A DNA stretch of 38,280 nt from a virus, in IMG/VR virus record IMGVR_UViG_3300030019_000083, positions 1 to 38,280 of that record. The stretch is one strand, 5' to 3'. Each line of letters opens with the position of its first letter. Within the stretch, counting starts at the first letter, position 1. A program made the position numbers and the translations under genes. Of the stretch, positions 27,604 to 35,931 are shown one piece after another. The notes beneath the pieces were generated by a model. That model saw only the letters and a list, made by a program, of their open reading frames with translations, had not been told where the DNA came from and ran no database searches.

Positions 27604-27918
27604 TTATGTAAAGTAAAATGACTTCTTAGATCCACTGTATTTCTGTGTCACAATTGTTGTCAAAAATGGGAAATCTTGTTTTTGAACTTTGTCTAACATA
27701 TCTTTAATATTTGTTGAATTGGTAAAAAATTTAGACTCTTCATTTTTATATCGTATTTTAATGATATATCTACCTTCTCCATATTCTGTTTTTATACCTG
27801 AAGTGAAATCAAGTACTTCAATTTCACAATTTACGATGTCCGTTATTGATATAAGTGGTGCATTAAATATCGTTTTATCTTCATCGGATTTAATTCCAAG
27901 CTCAGAGAATCTCTTCAT
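27604..27918 (-). CDS. DGR-linked accessory protein of unknown fold
   Basis: The 104-residue protein starts inside the last codons of the reverse transcriptase (17-nt overlap), so it is translationally coupled to it. It is strand-rich and moderately charged, with TDIVNCEIEVLDF, RYIIKIRYKNEE and a C-terminal FPFLTTIVTQKYSGSKK. This is compatible with a small OB-like nucleic-acid-binding fold. It does not resemble the Avd helical bundle of the BPP-1 DGR. Given the coupling, a role in TR RNA or cDNA handling is a reasonable inference. The alternative is an unrelated early gene. Confidence 0.6.
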   Translation of the reverse strand: MKRFSELGIKSDEDKTIFNAPLISITDIVNCEIEVLDFTSGIKTEYGEGRYIIKIRYKNEESKFFTNSTNIKDMLDKVQKQDFPFLTTIVTQKYSGSKKSFYFT

Positions 27919-28903
27919 TTTTTATAATCTTTTTAATTAAGTTCTTTGAATCGCAGTGTTTTGCCCATCCTAAATGTGGTGCAATCTGCATTTTGTATTG
28001 TTTCGGATCCAGTTTTTTCTTATTCAGTTTTGCTGCTTTCCGGCAGAACCGTACTTTAATCGTTTTTCTCATTAAAATATGGGTGTGTCTGAACACATAA
28101 CCAACAAAATCAATCCCACGAACATCAGTTGGAAATACCTGATAATTTCCTTTAATTTGAAGATTTAATTGATTGGTCAAGTAATCATTCATGTCAACCA
28201 ATAAAGCATGTAAATAAGGCTTATTCGGTGCTAGTATCACCATATCATCAGCGTATCGGTAATAGTACTTCACTTTCTTTTCTTCCTTCAGGTAATGATC
28301 AAAATAGCTTAAATACAAGTTTGCGAAAAATTGAGATAAATAATTGCCGATTGGAACCCCTTCTACTGAATCAATTATTTCATCAAGTAATTTCAATAGC
28401 CGTGTATCTTTTATCTTCTTTCGAATAATGCTTTTTAGTATGTCATGGTCAATGCTCGGATAGAACTTTTTTATATCAAGTTTCAAACAATACTGTGAGT
28501 TTTCAACGTCATTTAAATCGTGTTTAATCGCTTTTAAAACTGAATGGATACCTTTGCCTTTAATACAAGAATAACTATGCGATATAAAGACCGATACCCA
28601 AATTGGTTCTAAAATATTCATGATGGCATGATGTATGATCCGGTCTTTAAATGGGAGTCTGAAAATTTCCCGTTCCTTTGGTTCATAAATTCTAAATATG
28701 CTATATTCAGAAGTTCTATAAGTACCCGATATCAATTTGTCATATATCTGATCAATATTCCTTTCAACATTTTTCTCAAAAATCCTGACACCATATTGTC
28801 CTGATTTACCTTTTCTTGCTTTCTGATAAGCAAGAAACAAATTGTCTTTTGTGACTACCTTTTCAAACAAATTATTTATTCTTTTCATATCCTTTGCTTT
28901 CAT
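27902..28903 (-). CDS. Diversity-generating retroelement reverse transcriptase
   Basis: The 333-residue RT has motif A LKLDIKKFYPSID (catalytic Asp143), a motif B of DGR type IGNYLSQ (185-191; other RTs have QGxxxSP), and motif C YADD (217-220). The thumb-like C-terminus is short, and no maturase or endonuclease domain is present, unlike group II introns. It should copy the TR RNA with frequent errors at adenines and deliver the cDNA to the VRs. The gene lies directly downstream of the TR in the same direction, and the accessory gene overlaps its end. Matched TR/VRs with adenine-only differences confirm the assignment. Confidence 0.95.
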   Translation of the reverse strand: MKAKDMKRINNLFEKVVTKDNLFLAYQKARKGKSGQYGVRIFEKNVERNIDQIYDKLISGTYRTSEYSIFRIYEPKEREIFRLPFKDRIIHHAIMNILEPIWVSVFISHSYSCIKGKGIHSVLKAIKHDLNDVENSQYCLKLDIKKFYPSIDHDILKSIIRKKIKDTRLLKLLDEIIDSVEGVPIGNYLSQFFANLYLSYFDHYLKEEKKVKYYYRYADDMVILAPNKPYLHALLVDMNDYLTNQLNLQIKGNYQVFPTDVRGIDFVGYVFRHTHILMRKTIKVRFCRKAAKLNKKKLDPKQYKMQIAPHLGWAKHCDSKNLIKKIIKNEEIL

Positions 28904-28954
28904 ATTAGAGTTTTCTCCATTCGGATACTAACACTTTTTTGAATTAGTTATTTT

Positions 28955-28968
28955 TTGCCAAGTGGCAA
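28955..28968. other. Small stem-loop between TR and RT gene
   Basis: TTGCCA (28955-28960) and TGGCAA (28963-28968) flank a 2-nt loop in the spacer between the TR and the RT start. In the BPP-1 DGR, RNA between TR and RT is needed for cDNA priming. This hairpin may serve that role or may be incidental. Confidence 0.35.
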
Positions 28969-28990
28969 GGTCTTCATTTTTTTTGAAAAA

Positions 28991-29072
28991 CAATTGCGAG
29001 CCGTGTGACCTGCATTCGCATTCGAATTGTTGTAATTCGAATTGTTGAAACGGACACCCGAAGGGGAAAACC
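28991..29072 (-). repeat. DGR template repeat (TR)
   Basis: An 82-nt non-coding segment that matches both VRs at every non-adenine position of the coding strand. It contains 20 adenines, mostly in AAC/AAT codons. Read in the VR frame it gives an Asn-rich version of the segment: FSPSGVRFNNSNYNNSNANA, then GHTARN. Each AAY codon can yield many residues without giving a stop, the usual DGR design. It lies between the second target gene and the RT, and would be transcribed leftward with them. Confidence 0.95.
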
Positions 29073-29098
29073 CCTAAAATGAACAACCTTACTATTTA

Positions 29099-29467
29099 TT
29101 ATCCGTTAAGAGCTATTTCATAAAGCTCTGTTAATTCAGTTCCAGCCGCGTCCGAAGTCGATTCATCTTTGAGACAAAGGCGAGCCGCGCGACCCGCATC
29201 CGCATACGAATAGTAGAAATTCGAAGCGCCGAAACGGACACCCGAAGGGGAAAACCAGAAATATGGGAACCATTTTCTTTGATTAGAATTTGTCCAGTCT
29301 GCTTTCCAACCGTCGTTTTTAGCTTCTGTAATTACCATTAACATGTATTGAGCCATTGCCTGATCTCTCATATCTTCTGGCATACTTGATAAATCAATGC
29401 TTTCTGGTCTGCCAGTTTTTTTGCAGGCATCTTTAAAGGCTTTTTCTATTTTCTTACTTAATTTCAT
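29099..29467 (-). CDS. DGR target protein 2
   Basis: The 122-residue protein has a helical N-terminus (1-50), the segment NDGWKADWTNSNQRKWFPYF, the variable region (about 72-98) and an invariant-looking tail ending TELYEIALNG. It is paralogous to the adjacent 158-residue protein from about GW..D onward. No signal peptide or membrane helix is present. The scaffold resembles a short Bacteroidetes family, as I recall it, whose corresponding segment ends in GSRLCF. Variable residues fall in GASNFYYSYADAG. It probably presents a diversified binding surface; the ligand is unknown. A VR followed by 24 more residues is unlike the usual C-terminal VR. Confidence 0.85.
   Translation of the reverse strand: MKLSKKIEKAFKDACKKTGRPESIDLSSMPEDMRDQAMAQYMLMVITEAKNDGWKADWTNSNQRKWFPYFWFSPSGVRFGASNFYYSYADAGRAARLCLKDESTSDAAGTELTELYEIALNG
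29175..29256 (-). repeat. DGR variable repeat of target 2 (VR2)
   Basis: 82 nt aligned without gaps to the TR. All 62 non-adenine positions are identical. 14 of 20 TR adenines are replaced: eight by G, four by T before the last pair, plus C and T changes at single sites. The pattern is the fingerprint of adenine-specific mutagenic retrohoming. Confidence 0.95.
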
Positions 29468-29473
29468 ATTATC

Positions 29474-29950
29474 TTAGTTTATAAATTTTGCATATAATTC
29501 TGTGTGATCTTTACCAGCCGCGTTCGATAATTCCTCGCTTTTTAAGCAAAGGCGAGCCGCGCGACCCGCACCCGCATTCGAATAGTCGTAACCCGAAACG
29601 CCGAAACGGACACCCGAAGGGGAAAAGTTGAACCAGGGACACCACTTCTTTTGATCAGGATTATTATAATCAGCAACCCAACCTTCATTATAAGCTTTAG
29701 TGATTGTTTTAAGCTTCCTGTAATCAATTTCATCCTGAGTAAATCCAGACTTAATCATTTCGCTTTCGTTCAATGATTCTTCTCCCAGTTCCGCACAAGC
29801 ATCTTCATAAGATTTAATTCGATCAATTATTGAACTAGAGAAAAATGCTTTTCCAAATGTATCTTCAAGTGCTGACTTGAATTCCGGCATAGTGTTATAT
29901 AACTTCCGGGCATTGCTTCTTGAAATTTTTATTACTTCTAATGTTTCCAT
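29474..29950 (-). CDS. DGR target protein 1
   Basis: The 158-residue protein is the first gene of the DGR unit. It has an extra ~70-residue helical N-terminal region, then EGWVADYNNPDQKKWCPWF, the variable region (about 109-135) and a tail SEELSNAAGKDHTELYAKFI shared in outline with target 2. No secretion signal or membrane helix. The variable residues differ from target 2 (GVSGYDYSNAGAG). It lies 6 nt upstream of target 2 in the early operon, which argues that the pair arose by duplication and act together or in parallel. Function unknown; a variable ligand-binding role is inferred from the DGR. Confidence 0.85.
   Translation of the reverse strand: METLEVIKISRSNARKLYNTMPEFKSALEDTFGKAFFSSSIIDRIKSYEDACAELGEESLNESEMIKSGFTQDEIDYRKLKTITKAYNEGWVADYNNPDQKKWCPWFNFSPSGVRFGVSGYDYSNAGAGRAARLCLKSEELSNAAGKDHTELYAKFIN
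29547..29626 (-). repeat. DGR variable repeat of target 1 (VR1)
   Basis: 80 nt aligned without gaps to the TR. All 60 non-adenine positions match, and 15 of 20 adenines are replaced. It shares the substitutions at TR adenines 27, 28, 30, 45, 57, 62, 67, 69, 78 and 79 with VR2 and differs from it at seven other adenine sites. Confidence 0.95.
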
Positions 29951-33022: not shown

Positions 33023-33907
33023 TCACTCTGCAGTTGTTATTTTAGTATAGATACGGCGGAGACTCGGACGATCATCTTCACCCATAGTTTGCCGTAAAAG
33101 TTTATTTACATCAGTTCCTTCCGCTGCGTTTGCTTTAATAATCTGGGCAGCAGTTTGATTCAAAAGTTTTTCGCTTTCCTCTTTTCCAATTGGTATCACT
33201 TTACCGTATTTCTTACCAAAACGACTGAATAGTTCAGTATAACCTACCTTTTTGTGATCTATGGCACGTCTCATCTTCTCCTGTAAACTCTCGGCTCCTA
33301 ACATATAGTAACCGCAGGTATGTTCGGTAGCATTCCATAATGCTTTTATTTCAAGGAAAGCGTCGTACTGAAGATCACCCGCTTCATCAAGTATAATAAG
33401 GGGATTGGGAAGTGTTTTCAGATAAAACACCAAATCTTCGTACACATCAGCGTATTTACCGCTGTTCCCAACCCCGAATTCCTTAGCAATATAGCGGATC
33501 ATCTTTTGTTTGCTCTTAACCTGTGAACAATCGCAATAAACCGCATTCTTGTGAGTTTTAGCAAAGTGAACAGCTGCTACTGTTTTTCCGATATCACTCA
33601 GATCACATAAAAGGGAGCTGATACCATCATTCTGGCAAATTTCCAACTGTGCTGTGATAAACTGAAATACCGGTGTATTTGCGATCTTCCATGCAGGTGC
33701 ATTATTTACTGATATTCCCTGACGGCGTGCCAGTGATATCCAAACTGCATCAGCTAATACCTTAGTAGTATCACCGTTCTTAATCCTGCTGTATTGAGCG
33801 TTATTAATTCCCAATGAAATGGCAAACTTTGCATCCGATCCATCAAACAACTGGCGGCTTTCTGCCAAACTTGCTACGATCCGTTTTTTTAATTCTTCTG
33901 TAATCAT
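33023..33907 (-). CDS. MuB-like transposition ATPase
   Basis: The 294-residue protein has an N-terminal HTH (AISLGINNAQYSRIKNG, about 29-45) and an AAA+ core with a degenerate Walker A CDLSDIGKT (101-109; the first Gly of GxxGxGKT is replaced) and an intact Walker B LIILDEAG (170-177). This is the domain order of MuB, which selects target DNA and activates MuA. It lies 32 nt downstream of the transposase gene, as in Mu. Confidence 0.88.
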   Translation of the reverse strand: MITEELKKRIVASLAESRQLFDGSDAKFAISLGINNAQYSRIKNGDTTKVLADAVWISLARRQGISVNNAPAWKIANTPVFQFITAQLEICQNDGISSLLCDLSDIGKTVAAVHFAKTHKNAVYCDCSQVKSKQKMIRYIAKEFGVGNSGKYADVYEDLVFYLKTLPNPLIILDEAGDLQYDAFLEIKALWNATEHTCGYYMLGAESLQEKMRRAIDHKKVGYTELFSRFGKKYGKVIPIGKEESEKLLNQTAAQIIKANAAEGTDVNKLLRQTMGEDDRPSLRRIYTKITTAE

Positions 33908-33939
33908 AATATGGTGTGTTTTAAAATTCGTTTAATTTA

Positions 33940-35931
33940 TTATAATGAGTTCTTAGCAAATTTTCCCCAATCAACAACCGATTCTTCATCTTCCTCATCA
34001 ATATCATATCCCTTAGGTTGTACATTTTCCATTATTTCAACCTTTTCGTAAACTGCAGCCGGTGTAGTGGTAAAATTTCCAACCTTAGGAATTTCAGCTT
34101 TTTCATCTTTGATAAACTTGTATTGATGAGCGACTCGTTTATTTTGGTGAAGCATATTGGCTTCATCTACCTCGGTACGTTCAATGGCACATTCATTGTA
34201 GGCGTATTGTGCTCTGTTTTCTGCCTGTCCAATAAATGTATCACCTTGCCATAGGTAAACCTCGTTAATCGTTCCCTCCATGTCAGGAAGCCAGTAGGCT
34301 GTTACGCTGCGATCATTCGATTTTAGTCTTTTCAGATTTTTGAAGTCCTTGAGTTCAAATTCGCAGTTCGATACCGGACAGTAATCATTGTGATAAATTG
34401 AAGTTTTAGTTTCGTTTCCGATAAACTTGTATAGGTGCCAGTGTTCGATAGGTTGCAAAACAGGATTTACTTGTGATAGAAGTACCTGTTTACGGGTCAT
34501 TCCTGGATAAGTTTTTTGTAATGGGTGAAGTTCATTGTTATACTTTTCAATGTCGGATAAATCATCATGAACGATAGTTTGAGGTTGGTAAACTGGTTCA
34601 ATCATATCTCCGCTGACTCTGTTACGAACAGAACGGTAAGCTTCATGAGGTGAGAACCAACGTCCCCGGGTATGACCTTCTTTTTTAGAAATTCCATATT
34701 TGAATTGTTTGTTGGTATGCTCTACGCGTTTTTCTGTAGCTGTTTCGCAAAATCGTACGAATGGAAACATCTCTTCAAGCCAGCTTCTCATTTCTTTCAT
34801 CAAGTGCCATTCTACTTCCAGTTCGCCCGGCATTGGCAAACCCATCATGTCAAGTTCACAAAACATATTTCTGAATGTTTCAATTACAGTTCCTGCGTTT
34901 GGCTTGCCAACTATGTATGTCGGACGGAAATAATAACCTGATACTACATCCACGGCAATGTATTTATAAATCCAACCTCTGTTTGATTTGCGACTCATAG
35001 CAACGTCATCCATAGATATTTTACTCAAGGAGAATCTTCCCGGCTTCCGGTGTTTCTTTGCCATTACCTTATCAGCAAAAGCAAAATTTCCATTACGGTC
35101 TGCATACGTAGCCGTATTGTTAACGACATCCTTCAGGTAATTCCAAATAGTGGCCTGACTAACCTCCATTGATCTTCCTTTATGCATAAAATCCTGAGGA
35201 CGGAATATCTCACCGGTACTTTTATCAAAAAGTTCTTTTCTTCCTGATAAAAACTCCAGGTAAAGATCATGTACTCGTTTTACAAAAGGTTTATCATTTG
35301 TTCTCCACAATGCAAGGATTAATTTTTCAGCTGAAACAGATACTACACGAGCAGCATCATTTCCAATATTCTTATGCATAAGTTCATTGTAACCTCCTTT
35401 TAAATACGATTTAAATGCTCTTTCAAGGCTACGTGCGTTACCTATTGCAGTACATGGGTATTTCTCAACCTGTTCAAGGTACCAATCTTTAGCATCGTTC
35501 CAGAATTCACCCATTTTTAACCGGTTGCCGCTTTTAGCTCGTTGTGCAATTTGCGTTTCAAGACCTTTTTTAAGTGCGTTGAATATGGAAGCTCTGTTTA
35601 CGTATTCTTCTATTCGGTTTGGTTCAATAGGAGTTCCATCAGGTTTTGTCTGTCCTAGAAAGAATGTGCGGGCTTTATGGTCAATTTCAACTGTAAAATT
35701 TGAAGTACGCGTCTTTTCAGATTCTATTTTTCCAAAAGTGCGTTCTAAGACGTTCAATCTCTCAGGTCTTTTAATGCTACGTACGTCAATTAAAGTATCT
35801 CCATTATAACCTCGGCGATAAATTGATAGAAAACCGTTTTTACTATCATGGTTAAACTGTGCATAGCTTAAACCGGCATTACACCAGTCATTTACCGTAA
35901 TTGTCAAAGTATTATCAATTTCCCTGTACAT
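33940..35931 (-). CDS. MuA-type transposase
   Basis: The 663-residue protein has an N-terminal DNA-binding half, then an RNase H-like core. Comparison with MuA (Asp269, Asp336, Glu392) places the first catalytic residue at Asp308 (ISMDDVAM) and the last at Glu404 (KRVEHTNKQF). The second falls at Glu374 in ELEVEWHLM, so the triad appears to be D-E-E rather than D-D-E. The C-terminal region (about 430-663) matches the MuA C-terminal beta-barrel and partner-interaction area in placement. It catalyses strand transfer for integration and replicative transposition. First structural gene of the leftward early operon. Confidence 0.9.
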   Translation of the reverse strand: MYREIDNTLTITVNDWCNAGLSYAQFNHDSKNGFLSIYRRGYNGDTLIDVRSIKRPERLNVLERTFGKIESEKTRTSNFTVEIDHKARTFFLGQTKPDGTPIEPNRIEEYVNRASIFNALKKGLETQIAQRAKSGNRLKMGEFWNDAKDWYLEQVEKYPCTAIGNARSLERAFKSYLKGGYNELMHKNIGNDAARVVSVSAEKLILALWRTNDKPFVKRVHDLYLEFLSGRKELFDKSTGEIFRPQDFMHKGRSMEVSQATIWNYLKDVVNNTATYADRNGNFAFADKVMAKKHRKPGRFSLSKISMDDVAMSRKSNRGWIYKYIAVDVVSGYYFRPTYIVGKPNAGTVIETFRNMFCELDMMGLPMPGELEVEWHLMKEMRSWLEEMFPFVRFCETATEKRVEHTNKQFKYGISKKEGHTRGRWFSPHEAYRSVRNRVSGDMIEPVYQPQTIVHDDLSDIEKYNNELHPLQKTYPGMTRKQVLLSQVNPVLQPIEHWHLYKFIGNETKTSIYHNDYCPVSNCEFELKDFKNLKRLKSNDRSVTAYWLPDMEGTINEVYLWQGDTFIGQAENRAQYAYNECAIERTEVDEANMLHQNKRVAHQYKFIKDEKAEIPKVGNFTTTPAAVYEKVEIMENVQPKGYDIDEEDEESVVDWGKFAKNSL

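Follow-up and report, generated by a model that had tools for sequence, protein, structure and literature searches.

Organization of the locus

The DNA that was analysed (38,280 bases, referred to below as the window) is the record of a Mu-like phage, with matches to the MuA-like family phrog_310 and the MuB-like family phrog_296. The presence of MuA-like, MuB-like, terminase, portal, tape-measure and CI-like repressor genes identifies it as a Mu-like temperate phage of Bacteroidota bacteria. The MuB- and MuA-like transposition genes (33023–35931, minus strand) head a run of early genes on the same strand, which extends from MuA (35931) down to 23981 with mostly small gaps. Midway along it is a diversity-generating retroelement (DGR), followed by a C5-cytosine methylase gene. 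Two DNA methyltransferase genes (27600–26962 and 136–966) are found in the window, one of them immediately after ORF104, and the order of cassette then methylase is also seen in several relatives.

The cassette is encoded on the minus strand in the order distal target gene T2 (29474–29950, 158 aa), TR-proximal target gene T1 (29099–29467, 122 aa), template repeat (TR), reverse transcriptase (RT; 27902–28903, 333 aa) and ORF104 (27604–27918, 104 aa), with a 17-nt overlap between the last two. A preliminary description of this DNA had claimed that the early operon of a Mu-like phage here holds a complete DGR in which a single template serves two small paralogous targets, and all of these components were found.

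Template repeat, variable repeats and target proteins

The TR core (28991–29070, minus strand) comprises 80 nt with 20 adenines and is rich in AAY in the frame of both targets. Each target gene carries one variable repeat (VR): VR1 in T1 (29175–29254, minus strand), with 14 mismatches to the TR, and VR2 in T2 (29547–29626, minus strand), with 15. Every mismatch falls at a TR adenine (14/14 and 15/15; probability by chance 2.6 × 10−11 for VR1 and 2.3 × 10−12 for VR2), and the ungapped match of VR1 to the TR reaches 83 nt. The counts of 14/20 and 15/20 adenines given in the preliminary description are therefore right, and only its numbering of the VRs differs. Both VRs are in frame inside their ORFs, and the in-frame AAY codons are common to the two targets. 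Stop codons are unreachable by changes at the adenines of the TR, and the nominal number of variants per VR is 1.6 × 10^11 proteins. A search of the window that included the tail genes did not identify a third VR.

T2 consists of a helical N-terminal part and a VR-bearing C-terminal part; T1 is its paralogue, and the VR segment common to both covers about 26 aa. The target family has no relative in Pfam, NCBIfam or the PDB families, and no solved structure matches its fold; the matches in BFVD are to uncharacterised phage proteins only. The structure model of T2 is confident except in the VR part (pLDDT ∼50) and has no CLec match in the PDB. A CLec fold is usual in DGR targets, although it does not define them. 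In its VR segment the small-target family is similar to the VR end of targets of the tail type (27 columns, E-value 2.8 × 10−6), which suggests that a binding hairpin may have been transferred onto a small helical carrier.

The 3′ part of the TR (28990–29013, minus strand; counterparts 29174–29197 in T1 and 29546–29569 in T2) carries fixed TR/VR differences of an IMH*-like kind. Across 82 TR/VR pairs, the bases found at TR adenines are mixed in the upstream part and fixed at the 3′ end, where AGC becomes GGC (73/73), CAC becomes CGC (70/70), CTA becomes CTT (51/51) and GCA becomes GCG (22/22). The last two changes are synonymous and thus are not explained by selection on the protein; the fixed differences look like an IMH/IMH* boundary. 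A few of the 14 and 15 differences in the window, near the 3′ ends of the VRs, are therefore probably boundary marks rather than products of mutagenesis. The earlier claim that the VRs depart from the TR solely at adenines stands as to position and needs this qualification as to origin.

Reverse transcriptase

The RT contains the motifs IGNYLSQ and YADD, the latter intact, from which it had been described as DGR-type. This assignment agrees with the match to Pfam RVT_1 (E-value 1.2 × 10−18) and with the similarity to Brt of Bordetella phage BPP-1 (35% identity over 318 aa, E-value 4 × 10−57). The closest named RTs are those of the crAss-like phages cr52_1 and cr55_1 (57–60% identity).

Several relatives show irregular RT genes. 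The RT frame seems broken or truncated, with intact TR/VR pairs, in loci L103 (6071–7047), L104 (5638–6614) and L092 (7067–7654), which appear to be decaying DGRs or assembly errors. The RT gene of cr52_1 (L002) has in-frame stops under table 11, as is expected of a crAss-like phage in which one stop codon is translated as an amino acid. Locus L163 contains a second RT-like gene (1632–2666; phrog_2825, 'polymerase') about 2 kb upstream of its targets. In the LoVEphage OY725593.1 (L106, 2799–4342) the RT is annotated in pieces with the ORF104 domain on the last, the gene being broken or interrupted.

Spacer RNA

Most of the spacer between TR and RT, together with the start of the RT gene, matches the Rfam RNA family RT-17 (RF03020; 28874–28972, minus strand) with 44.3 bits against a gathering threshold of 40.4. 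The spacer contains a conserved hairpin, UUGCC-loop-GGCAA (28955–28968, minus strand), in which four pairs show 3, 3, 8 and 6 two-sided changes among 59 sequences with the pairing kept. RT-17 also scores above threshold in seven of the relatives that were searched, including one locus of the large-target form described below, and the spacer of the hankyphage is an RT-3 RNA (RF03068, 146.6 bits). The RT-17 RNA probably forms the 3′ portion of the template RNA.

ORF104

In the hankyphage, the homologue of ORF104 is the C-terminal domain of the RT (40% identity to residues 327–434, the last 108). ORF104 also matches the C-terminal 110 residues of the BKO1-TP3 RT, again with 40% identity, and a homologue is present in LoVEphage. 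In a profile search, 158 of the 166 loci had it beside the RT (136/141 with small and 22/25 with large targets), and it was not detected near the RT in cr52_1 and cr55_1. It mostly follows the RT gene; in eight loci it precedes it, and in several of these eight its position, between target and TR, is the one occupied by avd in BPP-1. The model of ORF104 (pLDDT 86) has the strand order β-β-β-α-β-β. From this topology an OB-like fold is predicted, the Foldseek matches to solved OB proteins being weak (best E-value 0.12).

The accessory gene avd is common in DGRs but not universal. A bAvd HMM detected no Avd in the window or in hankyphage p00 and gave 123 bits for BPP-1 Avd, the positive control. 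Homology of ORF104 itself to Avd was considered and rejected (hhalign probability 0.1%). Its homology to part of the hankyphage RT and its co-occurrence with the RT make ORF104 a likely split RT subunit or accessory. The linkage is constant despite fusion, separation and changes of position, which argues for ORF104 as a functional component of the RT complex, and from its sequence it can be regarded with good confidence as a partner of the RT.

Small-target and large-target forms

Relatives were collected from IMG/VR and from bacterial genomes with the RT as query; TR/VR pairs were then detected de novo and the loci classified. Among the bacterial genomes, nearly every host belongs to the Bacteroidota, and two are Ignavibacteria. 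Contigs binned as Clostridia or Bacilli also occur in several cases, and these are mostly of the large-target form or lack a detected TR. Many relatives sit on bacterial chromosome contigs, and cultured Bacteroidota, among them Pedobacter arcticus A12 and a Flavobacterium, carry cassettes in prophage-like loci, so that the questions raised by this element can be tested in the laboratory. The DGR of the window is thus not peculiar to this phage and is a member of a lineage that occurs across the Bacteroidota in more than 100 related phages and prophages.

The small-target form (138 loci) has two VRs in 104 loci, three in 21 and one in 13, some of the single-VR loci being cut by contig ends; its median target length is 149 aa, with a median VR length of 78 nt and 25 aa after the VR. 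The large-target form (25 loci) always has one VR, with a median target length of 474 aa, a VR of 116 nt and 4 aa after the VR, and its targets are mostly tail-like. Near-copies are counted in both forms. When mapped on a tree built from 117 non-redundant RTs, the target-form label needs three changes, compared with about 20 in shuffles. Within about 6 kb, early markers (a limited set of MuA, MuB, Sak4-like, DUF3164, DnaB, primase and RecT) occur at 79/138 small-target and 0/25 large-target loci (Fisher p = 9.6 × 10−9, near-copies included). In phages that are not Mu-like, PHROGs confirmed primase, DnaB, RecT and methylase genes among the neighbours. Portal or terminase genes lie near 31/138 small-target loci, so that the genes around the small-target form are not exclusively early ones. 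Tail or lysis markers were found near none of the small-target cassettes, and several large-target cassettes have them. Additional target-family genes or VRs were observed several kilobases from the core cassette in L079 (606–694), L169 (near 2127), L182 (near 770) and L183 (near 824).

Variation among close relatives

The near relatives of the window are the contigs L088, L087, L006 and L086. Between the window and the first three of these, none of the 80 TR positions is changed and 14 of 15 VR differences are at TR adenines. Relative to L088, VR1 has nine differences, all at adenines, and VR2 has six, of which five are at adenines and one is a C>G change. This change is common to L006, L087 and L088 and indicates that ordinary mutation occurs as well. 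Relative to L087, the VRs differ at 14 of 40 A positions and at one of 122 non-A positions, with an unchanged TR.

In L013, L014 and L015, the remainder of the cassette shows 3 to 27 differences over about 2000 positions. VR2 is changed at 11/20 adenines in one of these loci; in another, VR1 is changed at 9/20, and the non-A positions are unchanged in both. Whole VRs have been replaced, one target at a time and independently. The same pattern of whole-VR replacement is seen in L067, L068, L069 and L077. The preliminary description had predicted that VR differences between strains of an active element would fall at TR adenines while the TR stays fixed, and the relatives behave in this way, apart from the C>G change noted above. 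The comparison with these relatives suggests that the DGR of the window has been active recently.

The window and L088 are identical from MuA to DUF4494 and then diverge by about 3–7% (from about 30145 downwards), which includes an 86-aa ORF and, outside their VRs, both target genes. The proximity of identical transposition genes and a diverged cassette could arise from block exchange of the DGR between phages or from a chimaeric contig or assembly.

Proposed mechanism and role of the targets

Taken as a whole, the locus is best explained as an intact DGR that, assisted by ORF104, diversifies two small targets of the early module, with a probability of roughly three in four. The DGR mechanism itself is close to certain on the sequence evidence, being supported by the TR/VR pattern, the in-frame AAY codons and a fixed TR with adenine-directed change in the VRs. 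The TR and spacer (RT-17 RNA) would be transcribed as template RNA and copied by the RT with random insertion opposite adenines, the RT most likely being in complex with ORF104, its detached C-terminal domain, in place of Avd. The mutated cDNA would then take the place of the VR in a single target in each event, starting from a putative priming site at the IMH-like 3′ boundary and proceeding upstream. T1 and T2 would be small soluble proteins of the early/replication module, presumably expressed early, and might bind a variable partner from the host or a rival phage, for example a defence factor, inside the infected or lysogenised cell.

The position of the targets among early genes in unrelated phages favours such an intracellular partner; for an intracellular role as opposed to that of tail adhesins, the odds judged from sequence are about even. 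The main alternative is that the same DGR diversifies virion or adhesin components, such as tail-tip or decoration proteins, in ordinary tropism switching. It draws on the published phage DGR targets, which are mostly tail proteins (PMC8144416), on the relationship of the VR segment to that of tail-type targets and on the portal and terminase genes near some cassettes. On the other hand, tail and lysis markers are absent near small-target cassettes, unlike several large-target ones, the targets are only about 120–180 aa in length without a recognised structural domain, and the cassette is placed in a transposition/replication run in Mu-like and primase/DnaB phages alike. A virion role is a possible reading that is given a smaller chance.

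Two further explanations were considered. The targets could act in the lysogen, in prophage immunity or superinfection exclusion, and be diversified against competing phages; a small soluble protein whose VR forms a binding loop would be well fitted to this purpose and many relatives are found on bacterial chromosome contigs, but the targets of the window stand among transposition genes, which are expected to be silent in a lysogen, and this role is considered improbable. It is very unlikely that the element has decayed, that is, that it only looks intact, has lost homing in this phage and retains its VR differences as relics. The identical VRs of L005 would fit such a loss, whereas the RT and ORF104 are open and conserved, the VRs differ from those of L087 almost exclusively at A positions next to an unchanged TR, and in sister phages entire VRs have been replaced while almost everything else stayed the same.

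Diversification of small intracellular targets by an intact DGR would have consequences beyond this phage. Phage DGRs are generally thought of as tropism switchers. Small paralogous hypermutated genes beside transposase, primase or helicase genes in unrelated phages point to a second use of DGRs and, if the interpretation is true, targeted hypermutation would be directed against an intracellular partner that changes fast, for example host defence. ORF104 would be a candidate, open to test, for the accessory that is missing from DGRs without Avd, and an orphan Rfam family would be linked to template RNA. The most general form of this proposal, a pan-Bacteroidota DGR lineage in which pairs or triplets of small intracellular early proteins, instead of receptor-binding proteins, are diversified with ORF104 (a predicted OB-like domain, separate from the RT or fused to it) in place of Avd and RT-17 as part of the template RNA, is put forward tentatively and falls somewhat short of even odds.

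Comparison with known systems

The BPP-1 DGR (mtd-avd-TR-brt) shares with the window the related RT, a TR beside the RT, adenine-specific VR change and the order target-TR-RT. It differs in having a single tail-fibre target with a CLec fold, Avd and a TR of 134 nt, compared with two small early-module targets, ORF104, no detected Avd and a TR of 80 nt in the window. Hankyphage p00 (PMC6199706, PMC12135933) is likewise a Mu-like phage of Bacteroidota with a DGR, an ORF104 homologue and a structured TR–RT spacer. Its RT is 34% identical to that of the window and is fused with the ORF104 domain, its spacer is RT-3 and its single 116-nt VR is part of a tail-fibre ORF that is about 2245 aa long, which bears out the earlier statement that the hankyphage form is different. 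A hankyphage-type DGR was rejected as a description of the window, which has two targets of 122 and 158 aa and a separate, overlapping ORF104. The crAss-like DGRs (cr52_1, cr55_1 and LMMB) are also unlike the window in having a single VR in a tail-side gene.

Several targets per DGR occur in about one in seven DGRs (PMC3521204), and on this point the preliminary description needs correction, since a unit with more than one target is in itself no novelty. Multi-target DGRs (PMC3521204; tentaclins, PMC10743442; Bacuni, PMC8143477) combine one TR with at least two paralogous or related targets, as in the window. In the phage examples described, however, the targets are adhesins or tail proteins with CLec or Ig domains, and Bacuni has Avd, whereas those of the window are small unannotated early-module proteins. 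Phage DGR targets have been sorted into 24 target clusters (PMC8144416). A search of the main texts of freely accessible papers found neither small early-module targets nor ORF104 described, nor RT-17 named as a template-RNA spacer.

The spacer of the window belongs by its score to the Rfam family RT-17 (RF03020), the entry for which gives no function and which is here placed as the probable 3′ part of a DGR template RNA. This RNA, the IMH-like 3′ boundary and ORF104, which lies inside the interval of the preliminary description, go beyond that description. Neither DGRs as such nor their occurrence in Mu-like phages or with several targets is new (PMC6199706, PMC12135933, PMC3521204, PMC10743442, PMC8143477); the small early-module targets and the ORF104 accessory look new.
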